A model generated the notes under the pieces. That model did not search any database. It saw only the letters and a list, made by a program, of their open reading frames with translations, and had not been told where the DNA came from. Position numbers and translations under genes: made by a program. A DNA stretch of 64,000 nt. Origin: a virus. The stretch's first letter is position 1. Each line of letters begins with the position of its first letter. The DNA lies in the IMG/VR virus record IMGVR_UViG_3300032307_000369, positions 94,875 through 158,874 of that record; one strand, 5' to 3'. Positions 7,880-25,027 of the stretch are shown in pieces.

Positions 7880-7885
7880 TATATC

Positions 7886-8293: not shown

Positions 8294-8305
8294 AAGGAAA
8301 ATAAA

Positions 8306-8988: not shown

Positions 8989-9218
8989 TGATTGATAACT
9001 TGTATAAATTGGCACAGGGCGGTGGTCCAATTGGTGAACGTGCCCAAATGGCACTAATGCTAACTGAACAACATAATAAAGGTGAAATCACTGACAGTGA
9101 ATTTCAAGAACTTATGTTAGACTTAACTCGTCTTGACGAGGTGACAGATAATGCCACTTCTATTGAATACAAAACTATGTTTGTAACCGCAGTGTACGCT
9201 GTCGCACAACTAGCATAA
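8988..9218 (+). CDS. Small phage protein, unknown
   Basis: A 76-residue, mostly helical, acidic protein starting in the stop of the lipoprotein gene (TAATG). A central EITDSEFQELMLDLTRLDE segment resembles a short helical hairpin. It is the last gene before the terminator at 9237. No family is recognised. Confidence 0.55.
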   Translation: MIDNLYKLAQGGGPIGERAQMALMLTEQHNKGEITDSEFQELMLDLTRLDEVTDNATSIEYKTMFVTAVYAVAQLA

Positions 9219-9236
9219 TAGGATAAACAACTTTCA

Positions 9237-9265
9237 AAAGGCAGCTTGACAGTTGCCTTTCTTTG
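9237..9265 (+). terminator. Terminator hairpin overlapping the dnaJ promoter
   Basis: Bases 9237-9246 pair with 9251-9260 (ten pairs including one G-T) around the loop TGAC, followed by CTTTC. It ends the lysis/lipoprotein unit. The -35 box of the dnaJ promoter (9246-9251) lies in the loop and upper stem. Confidence 0.6.
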
Positions 9266-9274
9266 TTATATAAT
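9246..9274 (+). promoter_or_regulatory. Consensus sigma70 promoter of dnaJ
   Basis: TTGACA at 9246-9251, a 17 bp spacer and TATAAT at 9269-9274: both hexamers match the consensus exactly. The ATG of dnaJ begins seven bases after the -10, so transcription should start at or next to the A of the start codon. Confidence 0.8.
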
Positions 9275-9280
9275 AGTGTT

Positions 9281-10123: not shown

Positions 10124-10126
10124 ATA
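10119..10126 (+). promoter_or_regulatory. Possible late promoter element before def
   Basis: ATTAAATA differs from the T4-like late consensus NATAAATA at one position and ends five bases before the def ATG, the same spacing seen at 17092 and 56828. It overlaps the end of dnaJ. Weak evidence on its own. Confidence 0.3.
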
Positions 10127-10131
10127 TCAAT

Positions 10132-10644
10132 ATGGAAAAACTTGTATTTCATCCAGATCCAATTTTAGAAGAACAAATGCCAGCATTTGATTTTGACAAT
10201 CCTATTATGGATCCTAAAGAATTAGAAAAAGAACTATTAGCAATTATGTTTGCCAACAATGGCATTGGTCTTGCAAGTCCACAGATTGGCATAAGAACTA
10301 GAGTATTTGCAATGGGGCATTCACTTATGCCAGAAGCAAGTCTTGCAATGTTTAACCCAACTGTAATTGATGCTAGCAATGAATTTCAAGATATAGAAGA
10401 AGGATGTTTGAGTTTTCCAAATATTTTTGCTAAAATTAAAAGACCTACTTGGATTGTAGTAAAATACAATACTAGTGATAATGAAGAACGAACAGAACGA
10501 ATGGAGGGTTACAACTGTAAATGTTTTTTACATGAATTGGACCACTTAGATGGTATTGTAATGAAAGATCGTTTAAGTCAACTTAAATGGGCACTAGCCG
10601 TTAAAAAATCAAAAAAGGTAAAAAATTATGTTAGAACCAAATGA
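10132..10644 (+). CDS. def: Peptide deformylase
   Basis: A 170-residue protein with all three deformylase motifs: GIGLASPQ (residues 44-51), EGCLS with metal ligand Cys92, and HELDH with His134, Glu135 and His138. It removes the N-formyl group from new proteins, allowing N-terminal maturation, in the cytoplasm. Phage deformylases are known in marine myophages. The last residue of motif 1 region and the C-terminal helix are intact; length is that of bacterial Def. It ends inside clpA (17-base overlap). Confidence 0.9.
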   Translation: MEKLVFHPDPILEEQMPAFDFDNPIMDPKELEKELLAIMFANNGIGLASPQIGIRTRVFAMGHSLMPEASLAMFNPTVIDASNEFQDIEEGCLSFPNIFAKIKRPTWIVVKYNTSDNEERTERMEGYNCKCFLHELDHLDGIVMKDRLSQLKWALAVKKSKKVKNYVRTK

Positions 10645-12910
10645 AGATCTAGAAAAGATCTTTGAACGTGCAATTCAATTATCTTTGGATAACCACCACC
10701 AATATATTACTTTAGAACATTTCTTATATTGCATGGTTACTGACGAGTCATTTAACAGTGTACTTGTGGGTTATGGCACTGATGTTGAAGATTTAACTGC
10801 TAAGTTAGAAAACTATATTAAAAACGAGCTTGTTAGTATTGTTGATCAAACTTCAAATTCTAGACCAAAGAAAACTAATAGTGTTGAACGTATGCTTAAT
10901 AGAGCATTTACGCACACACTGTTCTCTGGAAGAACAACCATTGAACCAATTGATTGCTTTTTAAGCATTTTAAATGAAAAGAAAAGTCATGCGGCATTTT
11001 ATCTTCGCAGTGCTAATATTGAGAAGGACAAATTTATTGAGTATGTCAATAAAGAAATTGGCACAAGTAATCAAGACGGCGAAGAAGCCACAGTTCCAGA
11101 AAATAAACTTGAAGCATATATTGGCAACTTCTGCACAAACCTAAATGCCAAGGTTAAAAATAAAGAGATTGATCCAGTTATTGGCAGGGACAAGGAACTG
11201 GAAGAAATGCAATTGGTACTTGCACGTAGACACAAGTCAAACGTAATGCTAATTGGTGATCCAGGTGTAGGTAAAACAGCTCTTGCTGAAGGTCTTGCAC
11301 GTAAAATTGTTGAAGGTAACGTTCCTAAATTTATTCAAGATCACACAGTTTACACTTTAGACATTGGTGCTTTGTTAGCTGGTTCTAAATATCGTGGAGA
11401 TTTTGAAGAGCGTCTTAAAAATGTTCTTACAGCTATCCAGAAAAAGAAAAAGTGCATTTTGTTTATTGACGAAGCACACATGATGAATGGTGCAGGAACA
11501 AGCAGTGGACAAAGTAATGACATGGCTAACATGTTAAAACCTGCACTTGCTAAAGGCGGACTAAAAGTTATCGCTAGCACTACATGGGAAGAATTCCGTA
11601 AGCACTTTGAAAAGGATCGTGCGCTAATGCGTCGATTCCAACGTGTTATGGTTGGTGAGCCCGATGAAGTAACAACGATTAAGATTATCAAAGGTCTTAA
11701 AAAGTATTACGAAAAACATCATGGATGCAAAATTACTAATCAAGCAATTATTGATTCTGTAAAATACAGTGTTAAGTACATGAGTGATAAAAAATTGCCT
11801 GATAAAGCAATTGATATTATTGACTGTGCTTGTGCTCGTTTCAAAGTACGTGATGAAGAAGGCGGCACAGTTGACCACGATGAAGTTGTATTCGAAGTCG
11901 CTAAAATGACTGGATTACCTTTAGAACAAGTGGCTGCTAAGGATACAACAGTATTGCATGATTTAGAAGGCGATATTAAATCTGAAGTATATGGTCAGGA
12001 CACTGCTGTAGATTCATTACTTGATAAAATTTATATTGCACAAGCAGGTCTTAAGAGCCATAATAAACCAATTGGTAGCTTCTTGTTTGTTGGTCCAACT
12101 GGATGTGGCAAGACTGAAACTGCTAAAGTATTGGCAAATAAGATGGGCATTAAGATGCTACGTTTTGACATGAGCGAGTTCCAAGAAAAACACTCAGTTG
12201 CTAAATTTATTGGTGCTCCTCCAGGCTACGTAGGTTTTGAAGACAATGCTGGACAATTGATTACACAGCTTCAAGAAAATCCTAACTGTATTCTATTGTT
12301 AGATGAAATTGAAAAAGCTCACCCAGATGTTAGCAATGTTATGTTGCAACTTATGGACAACGGGTTTGTAACTGGCAGTAATGGCAAAAAAGCAGATGCA
12401 CGTAATGTTATTATCATTATGACATCTAATTTAGGTGCTTCTGATAGTGAAAAATCTAATATAGGTTTTGGCAGTCAAGAAAAATTAGGAGAGATTAATA
12501 ACGCTGTTAATAGATTCTTTGCTCCTGAATTCCGTAATCGTCTAGACGGTATTATTACATTTAAGAAACTTGAACACAGTGTAATGACAAAGGTAGTTGA
12601 CAAGTTCATTAAAGAAATGAATTCGTTAATCACTGACAAGAATGTGTTTGTACAGCTAACTGAAACTGCTAAAAATCATCTTATTGACAAAGGGTTTGAT
12701 AGCAAAATGGGTGCTAGACCAATGCAACGTGTTATTGATGACGGTATTAAAAAGCCATTAAGCAGACAAATACTGTTTGGTAAGCTAGTAAATGGTGGCT
12801 TGGTCAAAGTTGACTTTGTTGATAACCAACTAGTTTTTGATTATTTTGACCCTCTGCCAATTGTAAAAGATGTTGAAGCAAGTGCGGAAGAGAATGCAAC
12901 ACAAGATTAA
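10628..12910 (+). CDS. clpA: ClpA-like AAA+ unfoldase
   Basis: A 760-residue two-ring Clp ATPase. The N-domain (1-145) has the ClpA repeat pattern. D1 carries GDPGVGKTALAEGLAR (about 206-221) and LFIDEAHMM; D2 carries GPTGCGKTETAKVLA and LLLDEIEKAHPD, then NIGFGSQ, which matches the hydrophobic IGF/IGL loop that docks on ClpP. No ClpB-type middle coiled coil is seen. It should unfold proteins and feed them to host ClpP. It overlaps def and the next gene, both by 17 bases. All Walker and sensor regions look intact. Confidence 0.9.
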   Translation: MLEPNEDLEKIFERAIQLSLDNHHQYITLEHFLYCMVTDESFNSVLVGYGTDVEDLTAKLENYIKNELVSIVDQTSNSRPKKTNSVERMLNRAFTHTLFSGRTTIEPIDCFLSILNEKKSHAAFYLRSANIEKDKFIEYVNKEIGTSNQDGEEATVPENKLEAYIGNFCTNLNAKVKNKEIDPVIGRDKELEEMQLVLARRHKSNVMLIGDPGVGKTALAEGLARKIVEGNVPKFIQDHTVYTLDIGALLAGSKYRGDFEERLKNVLTAIQKKKKCILFIDEAHMMNGAGTSSGQSNDMANMLKPALAKGGLKVIASTTWEEFRKHFEKDRALMRRFQRVMVGEPDEVTTIKIIKGLKKYYEKHHGCKITNQAIIDSVKYSVKYMSDKKLPDKAIDIIDCACARFKVRDEEGGTVDHDEVVFEVAKMTGLPLEQVAAKDTTVLHDLEGDIKSEVYGQDTAVDSLLDKIYIAQAGLKSHNKPIGSFLFVGPTGCGKTETAKVLANKMGIKMLRFDMSEFQEKHSVAKFIGAPPGYVGFEDNAGQLITQLQENPNCILLLDEIEKAHPDVSNVMLQLMDNGFVTGSNGKKADARNVIIIMTSNLGASDSEKSNIGFGSQEKLGEINNAVNRFFAPEFRNRLDGIITFKKLEHSVMTKVVDKFIKEMNSLITDKNVFVQLTETAKNHLIDKGFDSKMGARPMQRVIDDGIKKPLSRQILFGKLVNGGLVKVDFVDNQLVFDYFDPLPIVKDVEASAEENATQD

Positions 12911-13589
12911 ACATCTTTTTACTAAAAAGTTATTTTATAAAAAATGGCTTTATAAAGTCGTAATTAGTTGCCCAGGAATTGGGCAACTACGTCGACGAGG
13001 TTTATCATATATAACTGCTGTCGATCACAAAAGATCTAGCAACATTTACTTAAACTCAATTCTTGACGATATCACCAATCATAGAAAAGATTTGATATTA
13101 ATATCAGAAATTTTGGAGAAAGAGCTAGCTTCTGCTGATCACCAAGTCAGAGTTGAAGGAAGTACGTGTGCTATTTTTACTAATTCTAAATTATTAATAT
13201 CTAATATTGAAAAAGGACTAAAGGGATTTGTTACAGAAATCCATTTACCTGAATCGTTGGAGTCAGAACTATTTTTATCTGGCAACAAGAATAAAGTAAT
13301 ATGCACACAACTACCGCTAGAAGGATATAGGTACAAGATATATCTTAAAAATGGCGACATCCGTAGTTATGATAATTTACAAAAATTTGTATCTTGGGCT
13401 GATAAATTTAAAGACAGGATACATATCCCTATAGGCACTAGAAGAGTTTTAGTTGGACTCACACACCCATACATATATGGGCAGTATTTCTATGCTAAGG
13501 ATCAAAAAATGGCCAGTATGGCTCTAATGATCATGGGAGATCACCTAAATAAGACCGAAGAATATGTATTAAAATCTGAACTAATATAG
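12894..13589 (+). CDS. Unknown phage protein (231 aa)
   Basis: The start at 12894 is chosen for GGAAGAGA just upstream; it lies 17 bases inside clpA. The N-terminus is very basic (residues 1-45, many Lys/Arg), the rest a mixed alpha/beta fold with a possible coiled segment (65-90). The basic leader could bind nucleic acid or membrane. A TTG eight codons upstream is an alternative. No family is recognised. Confidence 0.55.
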   Translation: MQHKIKHLFTKKLFYKKWLYKVVISCPGIGQLRRRGLSYITAVDHKRSSNIYLNSILDDITNHRKDLILISEILEKELASADHQVRVEGSTCAIFTNSKLLISNIEKGLKGFVTEIHLPESLESELFLSGNKNKVICTQLPLEGYRYKIYLKNGDIRSYDNLQKFVSWADKFKDRIHIPIGTRRVLVGLTHPYIYGQYFYAKDQKMASMALMIMGDHLNKTEEYVLKSELI

Positions 13590-13596
13590 GTAAATA
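13589..13596 (+). promoter_or_regulatory. Possible late promoter element before 13604
   Basis: GGTAAATA differs from NATAAATA at one position and ends seven bases before the ATG at 13604. It precedes a gene that looks like a virion protein. Confidence 0.35.
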
Positions 13597-13603
13597 TAAG
13601 ACT

Positions 13604-14032
13604 ATGCCAGCACTAAGCGAAACACTACTTTTTACATCGGGTACGGATTCAAACGGAAACCCAAATAAAACATCTAGCATAACTTACCCTCCAGGTGTAA
13701 GTGGTGCTCAAACCTATTACAGTGACAAAATTAAAGGCGAGGGATACTACGGTGGTAACGGATTACACACTGGTGGGTATATTCCTTGGCCTGAATCAAC
13801 ATTAGTTAACCCTGGTGAAAATAATAACTTTAGAGGCACAATACAGCTTCAAGCAAGCCTAGTAACCAATCCAACAGATTCTGATTGGTTTGTTATCTCT
13901 GGAACAGATGCTACGTTTGATGGTACAGATCAATCCAACAGATTTCTTAATTTTGTAGGTAATTTTGTTTGGATTCGCGCAAAAGTCGTTATAACACAAG
14001 GTGTTTTAACGTCAATTCAAGTCAATCACTAA
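13604..14032 (+). CDS. Putative virion structural protein (beta-rich)
   Basis: A 142-residue protein rich in Gly, Ser, Thr, Asn and aromatic residues, with a C-terminal NFVWIRAKVVITQGVLTSI segment typical of small beta-sandwich proteins found beside phage neck, tail or fibre genes. No signal peptide or catalytic motif is present. It lies alone between the unknown gene at 12894 and the cargo operon, behind a late-like element. Structural role is inferred from composition and comparison by memory. Confidence 0.55.
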   Translation: MPALSETLLFTSGTDSNGNPNKTSSITYPPGVSGAQTYYSDKIKGEGYYGGNGLHTGGYIPWPESTLVNPGENNNFRGTIQLQASLVTNPTDSDWFVISGTDATFDGTDQSNRFLNFVGNFVWIRAKVVITQGVLTSIQVNH

Positions 14033-14053
14033 TATCAGTACTCGCTCAATTCA

Positions 14054-14061
14054 AATAAATA
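14054..14061 (+). promoter_or_regulatory. Late promoter element of the cargo operon
   Basis: AATAAATA fits the T4/cyanophage late consensus NATAAATA. It sits in an 83-base gap, 54 bases before the first gene of the 14116-25027 operon. Confidence 0.5.
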
Positions 14062-14076
14062 CATGATAATAGAAAT

Positions 14077-14094
14077 CATGGTACCTTTACCATG
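14077..14094 (+). promoter_or_regulatory. Leader stem-loop upstream of 14116
   Basis: CATGGTA (14077-14083) and TACCATG (14088-14094) form a perfect seven-pair stem with a CCTT loop, between the late element and the start codon. There is no T-run, so it is not a terminator; a 5' stabilising hairpin is more likely. Confidence 0.45.
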
Positions 14095-14115
14095 GGTGAG
14101 TAAGGCACATATATC

Positions 14116-14484
14116 ATGAAATTATTTGAATTTTTTAGTCAGAATACAACTGAGCCAGCAGAGAAGGAAAATGACGACCAAATGCGTAAGGACGTCATGG
14201 CATTCATACTCGATGATAATGACATCTATCGAGAGCATCTTCTCCCGCTAATACACAAGCACAACAAAAACATTAAAGATGAAGACTTGCGTAAAGATTA
14301 CGTAAAAGTTGTTAACGACTGCTGCCTTCAATTTTATAAAGAAAAAGAATTAAAAACAGATCCAAATGATCTTTTCCCAAAGGCAATGAGGAATGAGATG
14401 GTAAAACAACTTATCAAGATCAATAAAGAAAATATTATCACTAAAAAGAAGAAAAAAGATGAAGATACGAGATCTGTTATTTGA
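14116..14484 (+). CDS. Unknown protein, first gene of the cargo operon
   Basis: A 122-residue highly charged helical protein. It begins MKLFEFFSQ, close to the leaders of the following genes but without a Glu at the expected cleavage position. The C-terminus (about 100-116) is a Lys-rich run. The next gene starts 26 bases before its stop. A core, scaffold or DNA-binding internal role is possible; no family is recognised. Confidence 0.55.
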   Translation: MKLFEFFSQNTTEPAEKENDDQMRKDVMAFILDDNDIYREHLLPLIHKHNKNIKDEDLRKDYVKVVNDCCLQFYKEKELKTDPNDLFPKAMRNEMVKQLIKINKENIITKKKKKDEDTRSVI

Positions 14485-14845
14485 GGGCAGGATTGATCCT
14501 TCTCTTTTAAATCAATTCCTAAAACATTGCTCTGAAGAATTAGGTCTTGAATCGTTACCTAAAATTAATCTTATAGATAATAAAGAGTATTCAATTACAC
14601 ATAAGTCATTTGGCGGGTACAGCCCAGATGAAAAATCAATAATACTTGCTACTGAAGGTAGACACCCAGTTGATGTGTTTAGAACGCTTGCACATGAACT
14701 AACACATTACAAACAAGACTTAGATGGACAACTTGAAGGCGACGATGTGGGTGCCACTGGTAGTCCACAAGAAAATGAAGCTAACTCTGTTGCTGGTATA
14801 ATAATGCGAAATTTTGGTCAGAAGTTTCCAGAAGTATTTGAATAA
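14459..14845 (+). CDS. Packaged HExxH metallopeptidase (putative)
   Basis: A 128-residue protein. The leader MKIRDLLFE is followed by Gly10, which fits a T4 gp21-type LxE|G prohead cleavage site. The body has the zinc protease motif H79-E-L-T-H83 in a helix and a downstream ENEAN helix (105-109) that could supply the third ligand. The size is small for a secreted protease, fitting a minimal gluzincin-like domain. If packaged it would enter the cell with DNA or act in head maturation. Catalytic residues look intact; substrate unknown. It overlaps the first operon gene by 26 bases. Confidence 0.65.
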   Translation: MKIRDLLFEGRIDPSLLNQFLKHCSEELGLESLPKINLIDNKEYSITHKSFGGYSPDEKSIILATEGRHPVDVFRTLAHELTHYKQDLDGQLEGDDVGATGSPQENEANSVAGIIMRNFGQKFPEVFE

Positions 14846-14853
14846 GGACCAAT

Positions 14854-15870
14854 ATGCGTATTAGAGATCTATTTGAAGGCGGGTGGGACACTACCAAAAC
14901 ACAAAATACTGTTTTACATCCTAAAATTGTAAGTGTTGCTCTGTCTGTAGTAGATCAATTTGTTATTGACTTTAATAATTTTATTAAAAATAAAAACATT
15001 GGTCAAATTAAACGTGGCAGACCAACAGGCAGTAGTGCATATCACGAACAAGATGCTATCGAAAAGCCTGAAACAATTTACGGCGACATAGACTTGCAAA
15101 TGATTGCTCCACCAGTTGAAGGGTTAACTTACGGGCAGTTTAGTGGTTATTGGAATAAGTTAGCAGATGATTTTGTTAAAACAGCTAATCCAACTTATGT
15201 AGACACAGCAGACAGCAAGCCAGGTCATCCAATTTTTCAAGTTGGTAAACAAGACTATGTACAAGTTGATTTTATGTGGCATGAACAAAAAATGGCAGAC
15301 TGGGGAGCAACTCGTGTAACTCCAGAACGTGGTGTCAAAGGATTATTGTCAGGTAACATGTACAGTGTGTTTGGCGAAATACTTGATATGAGCATACAAC
15401 ATGCTGGCGTACAACTTAAAGTGATTGATGATCAGCGTGTACCATTTAGTAAACAAAAAGATACGCAGACTATTACAGTAACAACAAATCCAAAAACATT
15501 TATACTAGATGTTTTCATGTATTTGGCAAAACGTATGGGTGTAAACAATCCAAAGATTGATCCTATGCTTAAACAGTTTTCAGGTAATGACATTAATGAT
15601 GTTAAAATAAGCAAACTAGTTAATGGTATGAAAGGATTTGCCTCAAGTGCCGAAGCAAGCGGTATGTTTGGTAACGGGGATTTACAAAATTTCAACTCTG
15701 CTCAAGATTTTATGAATAAGTTTTGGCAACGTTACGAAGAAAAAGCACAAATTGACATTGCTGGCAAAAAGCGTGACAAAGCACAGACCCCAGACGCTAT
15801 TGCACGTGCCAATGCAGACAGAGAAAAGATCCAAAAAGGTCTAGATATGGTTAAGGGATATTTCCAATGA
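14854..15870 (+). CDS. Packaged nucleotidyltransferase-like protein
   Basis: A 338-residue protein. MRIRDLFE|GG is a capsid-leader-like N-terminus with an LFE|G site. Residues 55-80 show the polymerase-beta-type nucleotidyltransferase signature: Gly59-Ser60 and then D78-I-D80; D139 in QVDFMW fits the third metal Asp. Such folds transfer NMP to RNA, proteins or small molecules. The C-terminal half is helical (from about 215) with a charged end. The gene follows the protease after eight bases and overlaps the next by four. Target is unknown; a similar fold is found at 16257. Confidence 0.6.
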   Translation: MRIRDLFEGGWDTTKTQNTVLHPKIVSVALSVVDQFVIDFNNFIKNKNIGQIKRGRPTGSSAYHEQDAIEKPETIYGDIDLQMIAPPVEGLTYGQFSGYWNKLADDFVKTANPTYVDTADSKPGHPIFQVGKQDYVQVDFMWHEQKMADWGATRVTPERGVKGLLSGNMYSVFGEILDMSIQHAGVQLKVIDDQRVPFSKQKDTQTITVTTNPKTFILDVFMYLAKRMGVNNPKIDPMLKQFSGNDINDVKISKLVNGMKGFASSAEASGMFGNGDLQNFNSAQDFMNKFWQRYEEKAQIDIAGKKRDKAQTPDAIARANADREKIQKGLDMVKGYFQ

Positions 15871-16244
15871 GAGCAAAAGAATTTATTACTGAACTTAAAG
15901 CGCCAACAATAACCAACAGACAAGGTAAGTCAACCACTGCAATACATCTTTACACTGATGCTGAAAGACGCAATAGTGATTATGTGTCATATCGTTTAGG
16001 TATGGCTGTGGCGTGTACTGATGGAACGAACGATCCAGACATGGATGGCAAAAGTTGGGTAGACAAGAGTAAAACAACACATCCATATACTTCTCAAGAA
16101 CAAGAGATGTTAAAGAAAGCCTATAAGGTTGTAGGTGCAAAATATACAGATTTGACCAAAGGTGATATGAGAAGTCAAGAACTGAATACTACTAACGTTG
16201 TTAGTCCTGTTGCTAAACCCAAACGAAACAAATACGGCGTGTAA
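15867..16244 (+). CDS. Conserved leader-bearing phage protein
   Basis: A 125-residue protein starting MRAKEFITE|L, which resembles T4 internal-protein leaders (T4 IPIII starts MKTYQEFIAE|A). The body has VSYRLGMAVA, an Asp-rich loop (DPDMDGKSWVDK, about 54-65), a helical HPYTSQEQEMLKKAYKVVG segment and a basic Pro/Lys C-terminus. I recall similar proteins in other marine phages, all of unknown function. ATGA overlap with the gene before. Likely a small internal head protein, by inference. Confidence 0.6.
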   Translation: MRAKEFITELKAPTITNRQGKSTTAIHLYTDAERRNSDYVSYRLGMAVACTDGTNDPDMDGKSWVDKSKTTHPYTSQEQEMLKKAYKVVGAKYTDLTKGDMRSQELNTTNVVSPVAKPKRNKYGV

Positions 16245-16256
16245 CGAGAGTTAAAA

Positions 16257-17096
16257 ATGAAAATATTTGAACTGTTAATTGAAAGTGGTAAACGACTTGC
16301 TAGTCAAGGAGTTGAAGTCTCTAGAGTAAACAAAGAAGACTTCAATGCCGCTAAAAATGTTTTAAATCCTATTCTAATCAAAGCAGGAATTAAAGCAGGA
16401 TGGACTGCTGGCGGAGCTGGTAGTTTTGATCCAGAGCATGATTATGGTGGCGGTGGTAGAGAGGACAGTGGTGATATTGATATTATGATTGATCCAACTG
16501 ACTTGGTAAAACAATTTCCTCCTAATGTTGAAGCATATAACGCCGCAAGTAAAAAACCAATTGGTCCAAAAGCAATGGCATCAGCCATGGCGGATCCTGC
16601 TAAAAAAGCAAAAATTGAGATGAGTGCAAGTAAATGGGCACTTGCAACTTATATGTCAAAGAACGGATTTATAACTGACCCAGGAACGTTAACTGTTGAA
16701 TACACTGCTGGTGGACAAAGTTTCTCAGTTGATTTAATTATACGTCCACGTAATGCATGGCCGTTGCACACACATGATTTTGTAACTGACCCAAAAATGC
16801 GTGGTGGCGATTTATGGACACAGATGTATCCAGTACTTGCTAAACTTGCAAGCCAAAAAACATTTGTTGATCCAAAAACAGGCGAAGAAAAAGGCAACCT
16901 ACAATTCAGCCCAGACAGAGGATTGGTAGACAGAGATACTGATAAAGTCATTGCAATCAACAAAGATGACATTGCTAAAATATTGTTACACCCACAAGCA
17001 ACAGCTAGAGATTTAGCAAGTATGACAGGTATTAGAAATGCGTTGTCTAAACAGCCTGAAAAACTGTCAAAACTACCACAGCCACAAGAGCAATAA
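16257..17096 (+). CDS. Second packaged nucleotidyltransferase-like protein
   Basis: A 279-residue protein with the leader MKIFELLIE|S. The GS...DxD pattern is clear: Gly55-Ser56, a Gly-rich loop, then D73-I-D75, and D159 in FSVDLII as third metal ligand. It shares the order of motifs but little other sequence with the 14854 product, so they are distant relatives or independent recruits. RGGDLWTQMYPVLAKLA forms a helix after the catalytic domain; the end is Pro/Gln/Lys-rich. AGAG precedes the ATG. Function beyond nucleotidyl transfer is not known. Confidence 0.6.
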   Translation: MKIFELLIESGKRLASQGVEVSRVNKEDFNAAKNVLNPILIKAGIKAGWTAGGAGSFDPEHDYGGGGREDSGDIDIMIDPTDLVKQFPPNVEAYNAASKKPIGPKAMASAMADPAKKAKIEMSASKWALATYMSKNGFITDPGTLTVEYTAGGQSFSVDLIIRPRNAWPLHTHDFVTDPKMRGGDLWTQMYPVLAKLASQKTFVDPKTGEEKGNLQFSPDRGLVDRDTDKVIAINKDDIAKILLHPQATARDLASMTGIRNALSKQPEKLSKLPQPQEQ

Positions 17097-17099
17097 ATA
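17092..17099 (+). promoter_or_regulatory. Late promoter element before 17105
   Basis: AATAAATA matches NATAAATA and overlaps the stop codon of the preceding gene. It ends five bases before the ATG at 17105, so a transcript from it would have almost no leader. Confidence 0.5.
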
Positions 17100-17104
17100 C
17101 ACTT

Positions 17105-19507
17105 ATGAATTTATTTGAACTGTTCTCACCCAATAAACAAATTATTATGGAAGGCATTGACCATCCAGAAGATCTCATTATCTCGCAAGGTAGTGCAGGT
17201 GCTGACAGGGTATTAAAAGATTTAGCAAGTTTAGAAAAAGATCCAAGTACAGTTACAGTTAAATGGGACGGCTTTCCAGCAGTAGTATTTGGTAGAGACA
17301 AAGGCGGAAACTTAGTGTTTATGGATAAGCACATGTACGAAAAAGTATCTGCTGGCAAAATGGATTTTATGTCCATTAAAGATTATGATGAAAGTCGTGG
17401 AGCCAATCGTTCAAGTCTAATTGACCAAGAAAGTGTAATACGTCCGCTATTGAGCAAAATTGTTCCTAACGTTCGAGATCAATATTGGATGGGCGACTTA
17501 ATGTGGACTGGCACCCCGCCAGTTAGTAATGGTGCATTTGTCTTTAAACCAAATACGGTTGAATATCAAGTTGACATAGATCAAAGTCCTGGAGTTGGCG
17601 ATTCATTAAGCGACAAGATTGCTAGAAGCGGGGCAGGAATTGCAGTACATACTTTTATTCCAGGATTAGGACAACCTGATCAACCACTTGTTGGTCTTAA
17701 AGGATTACCAGAAGATGCTGGCATTACTTTCCTAGTAGGAGAGATGAAGGACAAACCACGTGTTGCAATTAATTCAGAATTATTAAATCAAACGCAACAA
17801 ATAATTAATGCAAATAGAAGTGCTGTGGATAAATTCTTTGTTGATCTAACTGCAATGAAAGGCAAGAGTGTTGTAACTGCCATGGGCCCTTTCATCACAC
17901 GCATGTTAGAAGACAATGATATTAAAGGCAACATTGTTCCTAGATTCTTAGAATTTTTAGGAGAGCGTTTAACTGACAGTGCTAAACAAAAAATGTTAGG
18001 CACTAACAAAGATGGTTGGCTTTATCAAGAACAAGGCGGTGCTCCAGGACTACTTGGCATTTGGACCATGTGGGCCGCTATTACTGAATTAAAATTAAAT
18101 ATTAAACAACAAATTGATACGCAACAGCAAGGTAGTAAGATACGTGCTGTTACTGATGGAATTAACGCACATGAAGGTTATGTGTTTGGTGCTGGTAAAG
18201 ACAAATTAAAACTAGTTGATAGATTAGGATTTAGCAGAGCAAACTTTGCTAAACATAAAGTTAGTGATGAAGAAGTGGCTGAAAAAAGTAAAATGCCGTT
18301 GGCAGTTTTTTGCTTTGGACGTATGAATCCGCCAACAATGGGACACGGTCTTGTTTTAAATAAAACAATTGAACTTGGCAAACAAAATGCATTTATATTT
18401 TTAAGTAATAGTGTTGACCCTACAGAAAATCCTTTACAGCCATCAATAAAAGCAAAATTTGTTGAACAAATTTATCCTAATACCAAAGGACACATTGTTA
18501 CAGAATTTGTCCAAAATCCAATATACGCTGCCAACTGGTTATATGCTAAAGGCTATCGAAATATGGCATTTGTTGCTGGCAGTGATAGATTGGGTAAAGA
18601 AAAGGGCAGTATTGAAAAAATACTTAACAGTTGGAATAGCGGTCCAGTTAGAAGTACCGATCCTGCTGGCGCTAGAGATTTCGTACAAATACAATACATA
18701 AGTGCAGGTGATAGGGATCCTGATAGTGAAGGAGTTTCAGGCTTCAGTGGATCTAAAGCACGTCAAGCAGTGACCGCAAATAACGAACAACAGTTTCAAC
18801 AATATACTGGAATTGGTAATGATATCGTTGTTAATGGTAAAACACTATATCAGTCAGTTAGAGAAGGTATGGGTATAAAAGATCAAAAACCAACTGCTCC
18901 AGCCGTGCCTGCTAAACAACCTACTATCAATGTACCAAATCAAAATGTCACTACTAAACAACCTGTTGAAAAGAAAGTTCCTGGACAAGCCCCAATGCAA
19001 AAAACAAATCAAGCAGACTTGGTTGAGAGTGTGCTAAGAGACAAAGAAGATTATTATGCCAAACGTAAGGCATTACAAGATATTCAATTGGATCCAAATA
19101 CTGCTAAAGATGAAGAATTAAGAAAAGAACTTATTAGACGTAAACACGCTTTAGAACGTGAAGCCAAAAAGAAAGGTGTTATTGCTGAATCAATTATTAG
19201 ATCAATTATTGATGAAGCACCAATCGAGATGGATCCACAAAATCCAAATGACCCAATGGTTATGCCACCTGGTCTTAATCCAGGAAAACTTAGCTATCGT
19301 AAACAACGTGCGGCTGCACAATTGGCAGATTTAGCTCGTATGGCTTCACAGGCAAATGAAAAGAATAGTGCTATAATGTGGGATAGCATTGTTAAACATT
19401 TTCCAGAGTTAGAAACAAACATTCGCAGTATACAACATGGCATGCAAGAATTAGAAAAAGTTAGACGTGCAGGCGGAAAACAAAGTAGAGGAATTGAAAA
19501 AATATGA
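17105..19507 (+). CDS. KxDG ligase-like / HxGH-type nucleotidylyltransferase fusion
   Basis: An 800-residue protein. The leader MNLFELF runs to QIIME|G16-17, a good IxE|G cleavage site. Residues 50-75 have K53-W-D-G, the adenylation motif of the DNA/RNA ligase and capping superfamily; this region matches a phage domain I recall as DUF6267. A second domain has GRMNPPTMGH (about 406-415) and FSGSKAR (about 545-551), the HxGH and SxxxxR motifs of NMNAT/cytidylyltransferases. A Pro/Gln linker and a charged helical C-terminus follow. It could ligate, cap or NAD-modify RNA or make cofactors; none is shown. ATGA with the next gene. Confidence 0.65.
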   Translation: MNLFELFSPNKQIIMEGIDHPEDLIISQGSAGADRVLKDLASLEKDPSTVTVKWDGFPAVVFGRDKGGNLVFMDKHMYEKVSAGKMDFMSIKDYDESRGANRSSLIDQESVIRPLLSKIVPNVRDQYWMGDLMWTGTPPVSNGAFVFKPNTVEYQVDIDQSPGVGDSLSDKIARSGAGIAVHTFIPGLGQPDQPLVGLKGLPEDAGITFLVGEMKDKPRVAINSELLNQTQQIINANRSAVDKFFVDLTAMKGKSVVTAMGPFITRMLEDNDIKGNIVPRFLEFLGERLTDSAKQKMLGTNKDGWLYQEQGGAPGLLGIWTMWAAITELKLNIKQQIDTQQQGSKIRAVTDGINAHEGYVFGAGKDKLKLVDRLGFSRANFAKHKVSDEEVAEKSKMPLAVFCFGRMNPPTMGHGLVLNKTIELGKQNAFIFLSNSVDPTENPLQPSIKAKFVEQIYPNTKGHIVTEFVQNPIYAANWLYAKGYRNMAFVAGSDRLGKEKGSIEKILNSWNSGPVRSTDPAGARDFVQIQYISAGDRDPDSEGVSGFSGSKARQAVTANNEQQFQQYTGIGNDIVVNGKTLYQSVREGMGIKDQKPTAPAVPAKQPTINVPNQNVTTKQPVEKKVPGQAPMQKTNQADLVESVLRDKEDYYAKRKALQDIQLDPNTAKDEELRKELIRRKHALEREAKKKGVIAESIIRSIIDEAPIEMDPQNPNDPMVMPPGLNPGKLSYRKQRAAAQLADLARMASQANEKNSAIMWDSIVKHFPELETNIRSIQHGMQELEKVRRAGGKQSRGIEKI

Positions 19508-20331
19508 AAATTAAACAACTTTTAGACGAAGCTAAAAAAGGTGTTAAAGCACCTAAGCATACAGTAAAGCCTAGAAACTTTGTTGCCAAAAATGCTATTG
19601 CTACTACTAGTGGAGCTGGCGCACACAAAGATAAAAAGAAAGCTGAAAAGCAAGGCGATGTCAAACACAAGAAACAAGCTGTTCCCGTAGATGAACAGAC
19701 TGTAGCAGAAGAGAAACAAAAAGGTGTTGATGGCAAAGCCTGCTGGAAAGGCTATAAGCGCATGGGCACTAAGAAGAAAGGTGGCAAGACTGTAGACAAT
19801 TGTGTGCCAATGAATGAAAGTTTTGATCCTGAATACGATGACGAAGCTGGAATGGCTGACAATAATCTTGAAACTCTAAAAAGAGCAGTAGAAGGCTTAG
19901 ACGACATGATCAATGAAGGCGATAACTTGCCTGAATGGTGTCAAGAAAAAATTGCAGTAGCAAAAAGCATGTTGATCTCAGTTTGGGACTACATGCAAAG
20001 TGAAGAAAACAGTATGTCTGAAAATCAAAGAAATCCTGATCTAATGAGTCAAAGTGATTATGACCGATATCAACAAGGTCAAATGGACCAACAAAAACGT
20101 GACTTTAAACGTGACGAAATGGAACATGAACTTGGTCACGAAGAAAGAGGAATGTATTATGTTGTGATTGCTAAAAATGGCAAATGGGAACATACTAAAG
20201 CACAGCCAAGGCAAGAAGGTATGAATGCCGCACAACGAATTATCAGTGCGTTACATGCAAAGTATCCAAGTATGCACTTGGGCATGGTAGGTCCTGATGG
20301 CAAAGTATATAATTATGGCAAGGGCAAATAA
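19504..20331 (+). CDS. Lys-rich internal head protein candidate
   Basis: A 275-residue hydrophilic protein with leader MKIKQLLDE|A (LxE|A site). Residues 10-75 are very Lys/Ala-rich and basic, then comes a conserved-looking GKACWKGYKRMGTKKKGGKTVDNCVP block (about 78-103), an acidic helix (110-160) and a C-terminal domain with MYYVVIAKNGKWEHTK and MHLGMVGPDGKVYNYG, which looks like a small beta-rich module. The basic region suits DNA contact inside the capsid. Overlaps neighbours by ATGA before and by one base gap after. Confidence 0.6.
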   Translation: MKIKQLLDEAKKGVKAPKHTVKPRNFVAKNAIATTSGAGAHKDKKKAEKQGDVKHKKQAVPVDEQTVAEEKQKGVDGKACWKGYKRMGTKKKGGKTVDNCVPMNESFDPEYDDEAGMADNNLETLKRAVEGLDDMINEGDNLPEWCQEKIAVAKSMLISVWDYMQSEENSMSENQRNPDLMSQSDYDRYQQGQMDQQKRDFKRDEMEHELGHEERGMYYVVIAKNGKWEHTKAQPRQEGMNAAQRIISALHAKYPSMHLGMVGPDGKVYNYGKGK

Positions 20332-20332
20332 A

Positions 20333-20767
20333 ATGGATAAGTTACAGTTAGCATTAAAAACAGCATTTGCAAGTGAATACTCGTTTGCATTAAAAGCACA
20401 AAATTTTCACTGGAATGTGGAAGGCATGTTCTTTACTCAATTTCATGATTTGTTTGGCGACATTTACAATGAAGTATATGGGAATATTGATGCGTTTGCA
20501 GAGAATATTAGAAAAGCAAAAGCATATACCCCTGCAAGTTTAACACGTTTCAGTATGTTGAGTGTAATTCAAGATGAGACTGAAATGTTAGAGGCACCAG
20601 AAATGTGTGCAGAACTTTTATCTGATTCTGATAAGATGGCAGAAATTCATAGATTAACTTTTCAATTATCTGAAGAAGCAGGTGAACATGGTCTTAGTGA
20701 CTTTTTAGCAGGAAGACAAGATGCCTTCCGTAAACACTCTTGGATGTTAAGAGCCACATTGAAATGA
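20333..20767 (+). CDS. Dps/ferritin-like protein
   Basis: A 144-residue protein with the Dps signature: QNFHWNVEG (His26), FHDLF (His38), NIDAFAENIR (Asp53, Glu57). The Asp/Glu normally four residues after the second His is Gly42, so the ferroxidase site may be altered. Dps proteins form 12-mers that oxidise iron and shield DNA. The gene lies in the cargo operon but lacks its leader sequence. I start at the ATG at 20333 (AAGGG upstream); the ATG at 20315 would add six residues. Overlaps the M15 peptidase by four bases. Confidence 0.75.
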   Translation: MDKLQLALKTAFASEYSFALKAQNFHWNVEGMFFTQFHDLFGDIYNEVYGNIDAFAENIRKAKAYTPASLTRFSMLSVIQDETEMLEAPEMCAELLSDSDKMAEIHRLTFQLSEEAGEHGLSDFLAGRQDAFRKHSWMLRATLK

Positions 20768-21435
20768 AAATCAAAGAGCTATTAGAACAGAAACAAACTT
20801 CCAATGAGGATATTGGTAAAATAGCCAGTACCGTTGCGGATAAAGTGAGTGATGTTGCTAAGCCAGTTATAGATAAAGTAAGTGACTTTACTAAACCAGT
20901 TATAGATAAAGTAAGTGACTTTGCTAAACCAGTAGTGGACAAAGTAAAAGACGTTGCACGTCCTTATGTAGACAAACTTTCAACTAGTGTTAAAGACGTG
21001 CTGCCTAAAGATGTTGGAGATAAGGTTGTACATTATGCAGGTGATGGACATGACCATCCACCAAATATGCAATTTGCCAGCGACAAGTATAGAGAAAGAA
21101 TGTCAAATTTAGATCCATCTTTTAAAGACGCACTCTATAGAGCGGCAAAAGATTCTGGTCTACCAATGCAGGTTACCAGTTCTCATAGATCTCAAGCAGA
21201 ACAAGACGACTTATATAGACGATGGTTAAAAGGCGAACCTGGTATTTTTAAACCAAGTAAAAATGTTGGAAGCCATGGCGGGTTTGCTGTGGATATGAAT
21301 GCAAAAGATGTTGCTAATTTACACGCATGGTTAAAAAAGAACGACCCAGATGGTACCAAGTATGGACTACAAACTGGAATTGAATTTGGTGACCCTGTAC
21401 ATGTCCAATTACGAAATTTTAATAAACGAGTATGA
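20764..21435 (+). CDS. Virion M15-like peptidoglycan peptidase with 11-residue repeats
   Basis: A 223-residue protein. The leader MKIKELLE|Q is followed by an amphipathic repeat region (25-75) built of 11-residue units such as DKVSDFAKPVI. The catalytic domain has SSHRSQAEQDDLY (Arg142), SHGGFAVD (His171, Asp177) and HVQL (His213), the ligand pattern of M15/VanY-type D,D-carboxypeptidases or L-Ala-D-Glu endopeptidases, one residue shorter in the central loop than VanY. It could open peptidoglycan during entry. Start at the ATG at 20764, coupled to Dps by ATGA. Confidence 0.65.
   Translation: MKIKELLEQKQTSNEDIGKIASTVADKVSDVAKPVIDKVSDFTKPVIDKVSDFAKPVVDKVKDVARPYVDKLSTSVKDVLPKDVGDKVVHYAGDGHDHPPNMQFASDKYRERMSNLDPSFKDALYRAAKDSGLPMQVTSSHRSQAEQDDLYRRWLKGEPGIFKPSKNVGSHGGFAVDMNAKDVANLHAWLKKNDPDGTKYGLQTGIEFGDPVHVQLRNFNKRV
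20839..20976 (+). repeat. 33-bp tandem repeat, about four copies
   Basis: Units begin at 20839, 20872, 20905, 20938 and (partial) 20971, each starting GATAAAGT or GACAAA. Copies two and three are nearly identical, copies one and four more diverged. They encode the 11-residue amphipathic repeats of the M15-like peptidase. Confidence 0.85.
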
Positions 21436-21725
21436 AACAGTATAAGATTACTACTGATAATATTGTCAATGACAGTCCAGACGATTGTTATATAGACCCT
21501 GCAGATCCTTTAAACGAAATAAAGGCTCTGCAATATCTTGGTGGTATCAATTCTCTAAATAGATTGCAAGAATATAAAGGCATGCAAGGTAGTAATATTA
21601 GCGCAACTGGTTCAGAAAAAGGAAGATTACAAAGAGAACATAATATTAAACCTGGTACTCCTGAATGGTTTAAACTATGGTTTAGCTTACCTTATATGAC
21701 TGGTGAGAGGCCTATTAAAAAATGA
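21432..21725 (+). CDS. Conserved small phage protein
   Basis: A 97-residue protein with DPADPLNEIKALQYLGG, a basic helix and a C-terminal IKPGTPEWFKLWFSLPYMTGERP motif that I recall from other marine phages without known role. It has no capsid-like leader. Overlaps both neighbours by ATGA junctions, inside the cargo operon. Confidence 0.6.
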   Translation: MKQYKITTDNIVNDSPDDCYIDPADPLNEIKALQYLGGINSLNRLQEYKGMQGSNISATGSEKGRLQREHNIKPGTPEWFKLWFSLPYMTGERPIKK

Positions 21726-22855
21726 AAATAAGAGATTTATTAGAGTTATCAAAAACTAGTCCACTAGGCAGAGCACTTGACCAATTTAGTGGTTCAATTG
21801 ACACTGAAAAAATTGGCAATCAAATATCCAATGTGTTCAAACCAGACACAGTTGCTGATACTAATCGTTCAACCAATATCACTTCTGCTCCTGGTACGTC
21901 ATCATCTAGTAAACCTGTTGCATCTGCGCCTAAGACAGACAACGTATTATCTGATGTAGAAAGTGAACTTGATAGACAAGGAATCACAGATCCATTTGTT
22001 AGAAAATCTATTCTAGCTAAAACTGGGCAAGAGTCAGGATCTAAATATAGAGTTACTGAAATTCCTTTCAAAAATACAAGTAATGATACTATTAGATTGC
22101 GATTACCACAACTACAAGGTATGAGTGATGAAGAACTCAATGCCTTAAAACAAGACAAAGTGGCGTTTTTTAACAGGGCATATGGATATAAAGGCAACAC
22201 GTTAAACAATAACGAACCAGGTGATGGTTGGAAATATCGAGGTCGTGGTCTAACTGGTATCACTGGAAAAGTAAATTATCAAAGAGTTGACGATGCACTA
22301 GGGCTTAAGGGCGAGTTGGTTAAAAATCCAGATCTATTGCTAGATCCTGAAATTGATAAAAAAGCATCTGTTTGGTACTACAAGGCAGCTGGTGCAAACA
22401 ATGTAAAATTTGACAATCAAGAAGATGCAAATAAATGGGCCATACACAAGGCTGGCGGGAACATGTATGCTCCTGGTACTAAATTAGGAAATATAGCACT
22501 AGATGACATGAACAAAAGGACTGCTGTAATTGCTACTACGGGAGCCGCAGTTTTAGCTGGTCCTACTTTATTAAATAAAGCAAAAGATATAATTGGAAAC
22601 TTAAAAGGTACTGCTGGCAATGTAGTTAACACTGCAAAAAATGTTGGTGTAAGAACTGCTGCCACTGCCGCACTAGCAGGTAGTTTAGGTGGAGGTGGTG
22701 GGAGTGGTGGAGGATACTATACCAGTAGAACTTCTGAAGAACCAGAAATTGTCGTTATAATTAACGGCAAACGTAAAAAATTTAAAACTAAAGCAGAAGC
22801 ATTGCAGGCAATTAAGTTAGCTAAACAACAAGGATTGGAAGTGTCAAATGGGTAA
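21722..22855 (+). CDS. Virion-associated GH19 lysozyme-like protein
   Basis: A 377-residue protein with leader MKIRDLLE|L, a Ser/Thr/Pro-rich spacer (55-85), and a GH19-like core: AKTGQESGSKYRVTE (about 99-113; catalytic Glu in QESG) and GDGWKYRGRGLTGITGKVNY (about 166-185), which parallel HESGGF and the groove motif of the endolysin at 5686. Then come an Ala/Gly hydrophobic stretch (260-330, a possible membrane-active segment with a poly-Gly run) and a basic C-terminus. It probably digests cell wall at infection rather than at lysis. ATGA junction upstream. Confidence 0.65.
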   Translation: MKIRDLLELSKTSPLGRALDQFSGSIDTEKIGNQISNVFKPDTVADTNRSTNITSAPGTSSSSKPVASAPKTDNVLSDVESELDRQGITDPFVRKSILAKTGQESGSKYRVTEIPFKNTSNDTIRLRLPQLQGMSDEELNALKQDKVAFFNRAYGYKGNTLNNNEPGDGWKYRGRGLTGITGKVNYQRVDDALGLKGELVKNPDLLLDPEIDKKASVWYYKAAGANNVKFDNQEDANKWAIHKAGGNMYAPGTKLGNIALDDMNKRTAVIATTGAAVLAGPTLLNKAKDIIGNLKGTAGNVVNTAKNVGVRTAATAALAGSLGGGGGSGGGYYTSRTSEEPEIVVIINGKRKKFKTKAEALQAIKLAKQQGLEVSNG

Positions 22856-23456
22856 GCCAGAAGTTTATTTAGATATGGACGGAGTTATTGCAGACTTTTT
22901 TACAGAGTATGCTAAACTTGCGGGTATTGAATCAGGAAACTATAGAGATATTCCCCCGGCTAAAACAGATCCTACATTAAACAAAATGATAGGTACTAAC
23001 TTTTTTGCACGATTACCAAAATGCAGAAATGCAGATGCACTAGTAGACTTAATAGTAAAAACGTTTGGTAGTTTTAATATCTGTTCAAGTCCTTTGCGTG
23101 GTGATCATGATAACAGTGAAAAACAGAAAAAGATTTGGCTTAACAATAATCTAAAATATCAACCTAAAGATGTTGTAATTACGCCAAACAAAGCCAAATG
23201 GGCCAAGCAAAAAGATGGTACTCCAAACATCCTAATTGATGACCGAGGGAGTAATATTAGTTCTTGGGAAGCCGCTGGAGGTATTGGTATCAAATATCAA
23301 GCAGACGAAGATAGCCTACAGGTGATAGTGCAAGGAATTAAAAGAGCGTTTTCTGTCATAAAAGGCGAACAAGAGCATAATCCGCAACAATTAAAAAGTT
23401 TAGATCGTAGCAGTGGTAACTTAATTGCTACCAGTGGTGATAAAGACTCCCATTAA
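22848..23456 (+). CDS. HAD-family phosphatase, 5'-nucleotidase-like
   Basis: A 202-residue protein with HAD motif I YLDMDGVIADFF (Asp9, Asp11), motif II CSSP (around residue 80), a Lys in KAKW near 124, and motif III LIDDRGSNI (about 129-137). This order fits 5'(3')-deoxyribonucleotidase-like HAD enzymes that dephosphorylate nucleotides. The Ser-rich C-terminus (170-202) looks unstructured. It overlaps the GH19 gene by eight bases. It lacks the capsid leader, so whether it is packaged is open. Confidence 0.7.
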   Translation: MGKPEVYLDMDGVIADFFTEYAKLAGIESGNYRDIPPAKTDPTLNKMIGTNFFARLPKCRNADALVDLIVKTFGSFNICSSPLRGDHDNSEKQKKIWLNNNLKYQPKDVVITPNKAKWAKQKDGTPNILIDDRGSNISSWEAAGGIGIKYQADEDSLQVIVQGIKRAFSVIKGEQEHNPQQLKSLDRSSGNLIATSGDKDSH

Positions 23457-23465
23457 GGACATATT

Positions 23466-23702
23466 ATGAAAATTCAAGAAATTATTACAGAAACTGCTAC
23501 AGCTGGTTCAACAAGTGCTAGTAATATTGCTAGTACTGGGAATAGTCCTCATGTTGCTGTTGGAAGTCCAGCAGTAATCAAACGTTGGGGTGGAAGTCCA
23601 GGAAAAATGGGCAAGAGCCCTAGTCCAACTAAAACAGAGCCACAGGATGCTGAAGATAACCCAGTGACCAATCCTAAAGTTGGCAACAACTTAATTTCTT
23701 AA
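23466..23702 (+). CDS. Small leader-bearing Ser/Gly/Pro protein
   Basis: A 78-residue protein with leader MKIQEIITE|T and an otherwise low-complexity body of Ser, Gly, Pro, Thr and Lys, including GGSPGKMGKSPSP. No fold is predicted. Similar short proteins occur in marine T4-like phages by memory. If the leader is cut, about 69 residues would remain in the head. AAGGA precedes the ATG. Confidence 0.55.
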   Translation: MKIQEIITETATAGSTSASNIASTGNSPHVAVGSPAVIKRWGGSPGKMGKSPSPTKTEPQDAEDNPVTNPKVGNNLIS

Positions 23703-23708
23703 TAAATA
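23701..23708 (+). promoter_or_regulatory. Late promoter element before 23726
   Basis: AATAAATA matches NATAAATA. It overlaps the stop of the previous gene and lies 17 bases before the ATG of the Lys-rich protein. Confidence 0.5.
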
Positions 23709-23725
23709 TAGTATTGGAGAACAAA

Positions 23726-25027
23726 ATGCCTTTTAAATCAGCTAAACAGAAAAAAACAATAGATGCGGCAGCACATAACCCTGCTTTTGCAAAGAAAGTG
23801 GGGATCAAAGTTAGCGATGCAAAGAAGATGTCAGCACACGGCAAAGGCCAAACTAAGTTTGATGAAGCAAAACTAGATGAATTATCTCCAAAAACATTAA
23901 CTTCTTATAAAGATAAGGCACGTAGCCAAGTGCGAGCAAGTGCTGGCGCTAATCCTAATAACTCACACGTAGCAACTGATCCTAAAATTGCAAATCGTGC
24001 TCGTGGCGCAGTCAAGGCAGATAATCGTTTAAATGGGTTTGGTCCTGCTAAGAAAGTTAAGGAAGCGACTGATACAGTAGAAAAAGATGAAAAGGGCAAT
24101 GTCAAATCATGGAAGCATGAGGGCGACTGGAAGAAAACAAATAATAAAGAAGGACGAGGAAAAGTGACTAATTTAAGCGACAAGGCTCGTAGACAAACAG
24201 CAAAAATGAGCAAAGCTGAAACTGAAATGGCTGAAGCATTTGAACAAGCATTAGAAGGTTCTGGATCTCCAACAGTTACACATGGTCCAAACAAAGGCAA
24301 AAAATGGAGTCCAGAAACTCCAGGCCCAACAAACCCAAGTTACAAGGGAATAGACAAAGGTATTCCTAGTCCACCAGATGGTGCAACTGCTCCACCTCCA
24401 GGATATAAACCTCCAAAGTCAATGAAAAAGGCAGAAGTGACTCCATCAGTAAGTACAGACGATTCTGCAATGGCAGAAGAACGTTCTTCAAAGAAGGTGA
24501 TGAAAAAATTACGTGCCAAACACATGATGGAATCAATTCGAGTATTAGGACAATTGATTGCTGAAGCTAAAAAGAGTGCAAAAAAGAAAAATAGCAAAGT
24601 TGAAGAAGACCCAAATGAAGGTAACGCATTTGGTAAAGCAGTAGCTGATGCTAAAAAAGATGGCATCCAAAAAGGTGAAAAAGTTAAAGTAGGTGGTAAA
24701 GAATACCCAGTTAAAGAAGCTGCCAACGATAAATGCAATCATACTCCAAAAGGTAAAAAGTGCCCAGTACACGGTTTAAAAGAATGTGGCTCAATGTATG
24801 AAGGCAATGATGGTAATTTAGCCAACAATGCTAAACCTTACGACAAAGTGACAAAGGGCGATGTAGTTGCTGGTAGATTAGGCAAAGACGAAATGGGTGG
24901 AAAATCCAAAAAGAAGAAAGTTAAAGAAGGATGGACCCATGATACACTAGCCGCTCAATTGTTTGAGAGTGGAGACGAGTATATGGTCGCACTACGAAAC
25001 AAATTGGATAAACAGCTAAAAGGTTAA
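23726..25027 (+). CDS. Large Lys-rich internal protein candidate
   Basis: A 433-residue very basic, low-complexity protein beginning MPFKSAKQKKTIDAAAHNP, a start I recall from other phage proteins. Helical Lys/Ala blocks alternate with Pro/Gly blocks (about 185-235). Near residues 336-351 a CNHTPKGKKCPVHGLKEC segment could bind zinc. Several internal LxE or IxE sites, such as LIAE|A and ALE|G, would suit prohead protease processing. I use the ATG at 23726 (GGAG seven bases upstream). It is the last gene of the operon before the terminator. Confidence 0.6.
   Translation: MPFKSAKQKKTIDAAAHNPAFAKKVGIKVSDAKKMSAHGKGQTKFDEAKLDELSPKTLTSYKDKARSQVRASAGANPNNSHVATDPKIANRARGAVKADNRLNGFGPAKKVKEATDTVEKDEKGNVKSWKHEGDWKKTNNKEGRGKVTNLSDKARRQTAKMSKAETEMAEAFEQALEGSGSPTVTHGPNKGKKWSPETPGPTNPSYKGIDKGIPSPPDGATAPPPGYKPPKSMKKAEVTPSVSTDDSAMAEERSSKKVMKKLRAKHMMESIRVLGQLIAEAKKSAKKKNSKVEEDPNEGNAFGKAVADAKKDGIQKGEKVKVGGKEYPVKEAANDKCNHTPKGKKCPVHGLKECGSMYEGNDGNLANNAKPYDKVTKGDVVAGRLGKDEMGGKSKKKKVKEGWTHDTLAAQLFESGDEYMVALRNKLDKQLKG

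Follow-up and report, generated by a model that had tools for sequence, protein, structure and literature searches.

Organisation of the leader-bearing operon

We analysed a 64,000-nucleotide stretch of viral DNA (the window), which corresponds to bases 94875–158874 of the 245,550-base virus record IMGVR_UViG_3300032307_000369; gene coordinates are those of the window unless marked 'genome'. The virus is a T4-type large phage. Between positions 14116 and 25027 lies an operon of 13 called genes, where an earlier note on this DNA had listed nine proteins (14459–25027) that open with a short leader whose last residue is Glu and had read them as cargo targeted to the head in the manner of T4. All nine N-termini are present, as listed below (arrows mark the proposed cleavage point), and the ninth, at 17105, is bipartite, with MNLFELF followed by IIME↓G. 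The leader, of about 8–10 residues, is common to proteins with unrelated bodies, which show no mutual BLAST similarity, as the note had held.

14058..14067, + strand: AAATAAATAC, weak candidate for a late-promoter-like element, some 45 bases ahead of 14116
14116..14484, + strand: first operon gene; N-terminus MKLFEFFSQ is leader-like, without a Glu cleavage point (relatives MxLxEFFx)
14459..14845, + strand: leader MKIRDLLFE↓G and putative HELTH metallopeptidase (phrog_87 metallo-protease, E = 4e-4)
14854..15870, + strand: leader MRIRDLFE↓G and nucleotidyltransferase-like body (motifs GSSxYH...GDIDLQ...QVDFM, from alignment)
15867..16244, + strand: leader MRAKEFITE↓L and small protein (relatives MRAKEFxxE, MKISELLE or similar)
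16257..17096, + strand: leader MKIFELLIE↓S and Pol-beta/X-like nucleotidyltransferase (several leader classes precede a constant E↓(S/A)GKRL junction)
17105..19507, + strand: bipartite leader MNLFELFSPNKQIIME↓G, DUF6267 and NMNAT/cytidylyltransferase domain (ligase-type motifs KxDG, GDL, EGYV, KLK)
19504..20331, + strand: leader MKIKQLLDE↓A and Lys-rich protein (29-residue patch like S-CREM2 virion ORF160, E = 4e-4)
20297..20767, + strand: Dps/ferritin-like by sequence appearance (by eye), without leader
20764..21435, + strand: leader MKIKELLE↓Q and VanY/endolysin-type peptidase (profile matches; present in just one related locus)
21722..22855, + strand: leader MKIRDLLE↓L and GH19-like endolysin domain (phrog_181, E = 2e-27)
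22848..23456, + strand: putative 5'-nucleotidase, without leader (DxDGV motif; homologous to HTVC008M gp134)
23466..23702, + strand: leader MKIQEIITE↓T and near copy of the gp23 arm (TATAGSTSASNIAS); 78 residues
23714..25027, + strand: Lys-rich protein (MPFKSAKQKK...) that contains LIAE↓A and LFE↓S as internal LxE/IxE sites

The leader is concentrated in one operon

A strict leader pattern, M[KRNQ]xx[EDQHNSK][LFIMVY][LFIVMT]x(0-2)E, was derived from the leaders themselves and matched 8 of the 13 called operon genes versus 1 of about 223 elsewhere (236 called genes, whole genome). The leader is therefore not equally frequent on the phage's other proteins; equal frequency on cytoplasmic proteins was what the earlier note had said would count against its reading. 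Given that the leaders themselves supplied the pattern, the informative part of this count is the concentration in the operon together with the near-absence elsewhere. Shuffled N-termini matched with a genome-wide mean of 1.0 (maximum 6) and an operon mean of 0.04 (maximum 1), and a recount from the DNA alone gave 8 matches in the operon, none in the remaining window and 1 in the 192 kb outside it. The sole strict match outside the operon (genome 46767–47372) reads MRAKEFILE↓A and heads a protein with an HEAYH motif; a looser pattern adds genome 244205–244786, near tail genes, where MKTLKDYITE↓S resembles the T4 leader.

The leader codons vary synonymously (ATA/ATT/ATC, CTG/TTA/CTA/CTT and GAG/GAA), indicating that the peptide, not the DNA, is conserved and selected. 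Were the shared start a translation or recombination cassette, in which conserved 5′ coding DNA serves expression or shuffling and the peptide has no role, the tight gene packing and the variation of cargo between related loci would fit. However, synonymous differences in many codons under a constant peptide disfavour a cassette origin, as does the substitution of leaders of other sequence with the Glu retained (next section), and we consider this explanation very improbable. In comparison with a close relative, faster evolution of the leader-bearing (tagged) genes was not significant (median identities 89% and 95%, p = 0.07).

Leaders are exchanged at a conserved glutamate junction

Scanning viral contigs with 16257 identified 35 related environmental loci; tblastn of 16257 against named phages gave no match. 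Aligning leaders across related phages, as the earlier note had proposed, revealed that the Glu junction is kept while leaders are exchanged between homologous bodies: in the 35 loci the junction between Glu and body is retained, and the leader swaps class or alters its length. Homologues of 16257 carry MKIFELLIE, MRIQDLLFE, MRIRDLFE, MRAQEFISE, MRAREFVRE, MLLCELFQRPIKNE or MTIQE alone, followed by (S/A)G(K/R)RL (for example MKIFELLIE↓SGKRL, MRAREFVRE↓SGRRL, MRIRDLFE↓AGKRL and MTIQE↓AGKRL). The leaders of 14854 homologues are 8 or 9 residues long and all end E↓GGWD, with Glu8 invariant in 15 of 15 aligned sequences. AlphaFold models have pLDDT below 50 at residues 1–12 of 16257 and 1–16 of 17105 (first 400 residues modelled), with a confident fold thereafter. 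A Glu kept under changing leaders, and N-termini of low confidence, would be expected of a leader that can be exchanged and removed.

The sites themselves point the same way. The residue after Glu is A, G, S or T in 33 of 68 leader families versus 27% in the bodies (p = 9e-5), a small-residue bias expected for gp21-type sites, and 61 of these families have L or I at P3, in keeping with an (L/I)xE site. When a leader DNA pattern was run over viral contigs, 36 among the 80 loci listed had at least two tagged genes and one had nine. Tagged genes of the collected loci form at least 68 body clusters, with profile matches to DUF6267, cytidylyltransferase, transglycosylases, GH19, GP88, ATP-grasp and GNAT, although some single matches may be due to chance. 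Loci L067–L146 (L080, L132 and L141, for example) include, among those listed, runs of as many as nine tagged proteins in other environmental viruses, with GP88, transglycosylase, GH19, GNAT and further bodies.

An uncleaved leader could instead act as an amphipathic peptide that tethers the proteins to a common partner in the infected cell (a scaffold, a membrane or a phage-made complex), with no packaging in the head. The leader is indeed amphipathic and of low confidence ahead of the fold, and 14116 keeps MxLxEFF without the Glu cleavage point. Yet conservation is highest at the Glu and in the residues that follow, with leader length varying up to that point; the bias in the following residue fits a protease site, and relatives occur in virions, as detailed below. 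A tether of this kind is improbable in our estimation.

The phage encodes a gp21-type prohead protease

The head genes lie at 184.8–190.7 kb of the full record (portal-like, prohead core-like, S77 protease, gp22-like and gp23-like genes), away from the operon, which has DNA polymerase on one side and a ClpB-like chaperone region on the other. A gp21-like prohead protease, which the earlier note had proposed to seek in the rest of the genome, is encoded in this portal–gp21–gp22–gp23 cluster: a Peptidase_S77 of the T4 gp21 type (E = 7e-27, above the family cut-off) adjoins the gp22- and gp23-like genes. The gp23 gene, at 189544 of the full record, encodes a matching site, YLAE↓S, upstream of a conserved RRVMP stretch, the position of the cleavage site in T4. 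The gp21 and gp22 proteins of the phage begin with LLRE↓S and LFE↓S, respectively. Proteases of the gp21 type cleave after (L/I)xE, and about 10 residues of the T4 leader are enough, with targeting mainly through residues 4 and 7 and processing through residues 8 and 10 (PMC9026906).

Leader-bearing relatives are present in cyanophage virions

The cytidylyltransferase domain of 17105 is homologous to S-SCSM1 ORF91 (E = 5e-20) and S-CREM2 ORF154 (E = 6e-11), and the presence of both homologues in virions was shown by others. Among non-structural proteins, mass spectrometry of S-CREM2 virions detected the cytidylyltransferase (open reading frame (ORF) 154), ORFs 6, 13, 14 and 136, and Cas9 (ORF12) (PMC10665884). 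The S-SCSM1 NMNAT (ORF91) was likewise found by virion mass spectrometry, with surrounding genes 89–93, 95 and 97 annotated as virion proteins (PMC9602691), and a cytidylyltransferase also occurs in S-SZBM1 virions (PMC9146016). Targeting, propeptides or cleavage of the virion enzymes go unmentioned in the S-CREM2 and S-SCSM1 proteome papers (PMC10665884, PMC9602691), and the leaders on these proteins are described here.

In S-CREM2 they read MKDFDSFLEE↓ (ORF6, SAM hydrolase), MKDLHSFLTE↓ (ORF13), MKRFDAFLTE↓ (ORF14, kinase), MQTFSMFFSE↓ (ORF136) and MKNFSSFLTE↓A (ORF154, cytidylyltransferase), and S-SCSM1 ORF91 begins MKSFLQFLKE↓A. A general leader pattern matched 5 of 28 non-core S-CREM2 virion proteins versus 4 of the 166 proteins that escaped detection (p = 0.004), which, as the pattern was written after viewing those N-termini, is support and not proof. 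HTVC008M had no match to the strict pattern. Two leader-similar N-termini, MKTFRQFVNDITE in S-CAM9 and MKTFTDF in HTVC008M, were left out of the counts. Separately, the S-CREM2 Cas9 (ORF12, L054:7704-10313) contains FMAE↓AA some 25 residues into the protein, a possible cleavage site that suggests head delivery of a Cas9.

Copies of the capsid-protein arm

After its own Glu, 23466 continues as ITE↓TATAGSTSASNIAS, a near copy of the sequence that follows the site in gp23, LAE↓SATAGSTSAGNVAT. The arm copy of relatives L019, L031 and L047 is part of a longer leader-bearing protein, where it follows a second Glu (PEPMFEE↓ASAGATSAGNIAS, PEPLDE↓SATAGATSAGNIAT); in L034, L035 and L039 it is fused to a 19504-like body, and further copies occur in L101, L119, L131, L132, L135 and L146. 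Virion proteins carry it too: S-CREM2 ORF160 has AAGATGFTGAAAPEGPVAGYDPLM against AVGADGFTGAAAPGGPNAGFDPVM in its own gp23 (score 95; no shuffle above 56), and the match of S-SCSM1 ORF97 to its own gp23 scores 83. Across lineages, each copy resembles the gp23 of its own phage.

In the window, gp23 is the top match of 23466, and the score of 58 exceeds all gp23-specific shuffles (maximum 48); taken alone, this match is not significant against a whole-proteome shuffle (mean 53, maximum 72). The case thus rests on S-CREM2, S-SCSM1 and the recurrence in relatives. We found no earlier description of such arm copies in the literature searched. We read the arm copy as a putative second means of head membership. 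One tentative idea, to which we give somewhat less than even weight, is that a single head-loading system uses two tags: a leader that is exchangeable and cleaved off, and a duplicate of the N-terminal arm of the capsid protein. Once cleaved, 23466 and its kin would nearly share the new N-terminus of gp23 and could occupy arm sites of the inner shell, where they might anchor or time the maturation of the head or retain cargo fused to them.

Proposed packaging of the leader-bearing proteins

The S77 protease, the concentration in one operon, the exchange of leaders with a kept Glu and the leader-bearing relatives in virions together support the T4-like targeting put forward in the earlier note. 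We hold with high confidence that these leaders serve as capsid-targeting sequences like those of the T4 internal proteins. Each protein would dock into the growing prohead core through the hydrophobic positions of its leader, and the gp21-type S77 protease would cut after the Glu, with loss of the leader; the freed proteins would stay inside the head beside the DNA and accompany it into the next host cell. Up to packaging and cleavage of the nine proteins this account is very probably right, and their injection is likely; for the whole course from docking to action in the host, we infer the steps from the evidence above.

The leader and its cleavage could also be real and the proteins be components of the prohead core or of maturation (scaffold helpers, DNA condensers or wall enzymes for lysis) and not injected effectors. 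That 23466 copies the capsid arm, that locus L139 has a leader-bearing gene upstream of a portal gene and that 19504 and 23714 are Lys-rich and not enzyme-like all suit such a role. Several bodies, however, are plausible enzymes without an obvious role in assembly (the nucleotidyltransferases and the NMNAT-like protein), and in T4 both kinds coexist (PMC9026906). We think this alternative unlikely overall, although it deserves more weight than a tether; it shares packaging with injection of targeted cargo, so our confidence in the two overlaps.

Several points weigh against capsid targeting of the nine proteins. Some operon genes have no leader, and the 16257 homologue in locus L038 begins at the body; at 15867, 20764 and 21722 the residue that follows the Glu is L or Q. 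Since 20764 and 21722 are endolysin-like, they might serve lysis. Detection in virions comes from relatives, virion lists may include contaminants, and the S-CREM2 pattern was, as stated, written after the fact. The late-promoter evidence (below) is weak.

The T4 proteins IPI, IPII, IPIII and Alt, with gp21, share with the present set a leader of about 10 residues, hydrophobic targeting positions, an (L/I)xE site cut by an S77 protease, and unrelated bodies. T4 has three small internal proteins and Alt, whereas the present operon holds about nine, most of them larger and enzyme-like, and the leader consensus is MKIxELLxE or MRAxEFxxE in place of the T4 leader MKTYQEFIAE↓A. The cyanophage virion enzymes (S-SCSM1 NMNAT; S-CREM2 cytidylyltransferase, SAM hydrolase, kinase and Cas9) share a homologous NMNAT/cytidylyltransferase domain and similar leaders, but the other operon members differ. 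In phiKZ and SPN3US, many head proteins are cut after Glu by a gp21 relative and some are ejected (PMC9026906; PMC10052503); compared by description only, these involve other head proteins and processing patterns. Phage P1 Dar/Hdf are reported to be head-associated, with a counter-defence role (PMC12810830). We regard the operon as an enlarged form of the T4 internal-protein system, rich in enzymes and with a copy of the capsid arm in addition.

General use of the T4 capsid-targeting sequence for protein loading has been suggested before (PMC9026906). Known from a few proteins, the T4 sequence now becomes a genomic signature, with about nine tagged proteins in one operon and cargo from dozens of families unrelated to one another. 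This would help to explain the NMNAT-like enzymes, SAM hydrolase and perhaps Cas9 in cyanophage virions, and would make head-delivered proteins of uncultivated phages predictable from sequence.

Predicted functions of the operon proteins

The functions guessed in the earlier note are reasonable. A protease is indicated by the HELTH motif and weak profile matches of 14459; profile searches with 14116 gave no family match. For the two nucleotidyltransferase-like proteins, the assignment draws on motif for 14854 and, tentatively, on fold for 16257, in which SGDIDIMID is invariant in the alignment (a candidate GS...DxD active site) and whose model has DNA polymerases lambda, mu and beta as best PDB matches (E = 0.01–0.04, probability about 0.9). 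The ligase/NMNAT fusion corresponds to 17105, where the NMNAT-like domain follows a ligase-like DUF6267. Here K53, D55, G56, D131, E357, G358, V360 and K369 are invariant (15 sequences), in agreement with ligase motifs I, III, IV and V; as for a ligase-type adenylation fold, Foldseek lists many ligases, none of them significant (best E = 0.1). Both wall-degrading enzymes, 20764 and 21722, are wall hydrolase-like. The start of 20764 is an ATG internal to a TTG-started ORF (20740). A match of 21722 to S-CREM2 virion ORF208 was set aside as evidence, ORF208 being a likely tail enzyme.

Judging by its internal sites, 23714 is a possible further head substrate. Candidate roles of the cargo in the host are NAD/nucleotide metabolism, RNA modification and wall passage. 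By eye, the cargo of L120 and L040 includes possible ADP-ribosyltransferases.

Late-expression signals and other genome features

Late expression of the operon, claimed in the earlier note, is plausible and weakly supported. The candidate element lies upstream of 14116, and ATAAATA occurs 16 times upstream of genes versus 5 on the reverse strand; the exact T4 late-promoter octamer, TATAAATA, is present as a single copy in the window, which is below chance.

Elsewhere in the genome, a cluster of several radical-SAM-like proteins with CxxxCxxC motifs lies at about 4800–16000. By eye, genome 25185–37785 encodes a chaperone/protease set (ClpX-like, GroES-like, DnaK-like and ClpS-like) and a heme-oxygenase-like protein, and genome 73431–76817 encodes a set resembling Fe-S cluster assembly (SufC-like, cysteine desulfurase-like, IscU-like and IscA-like).

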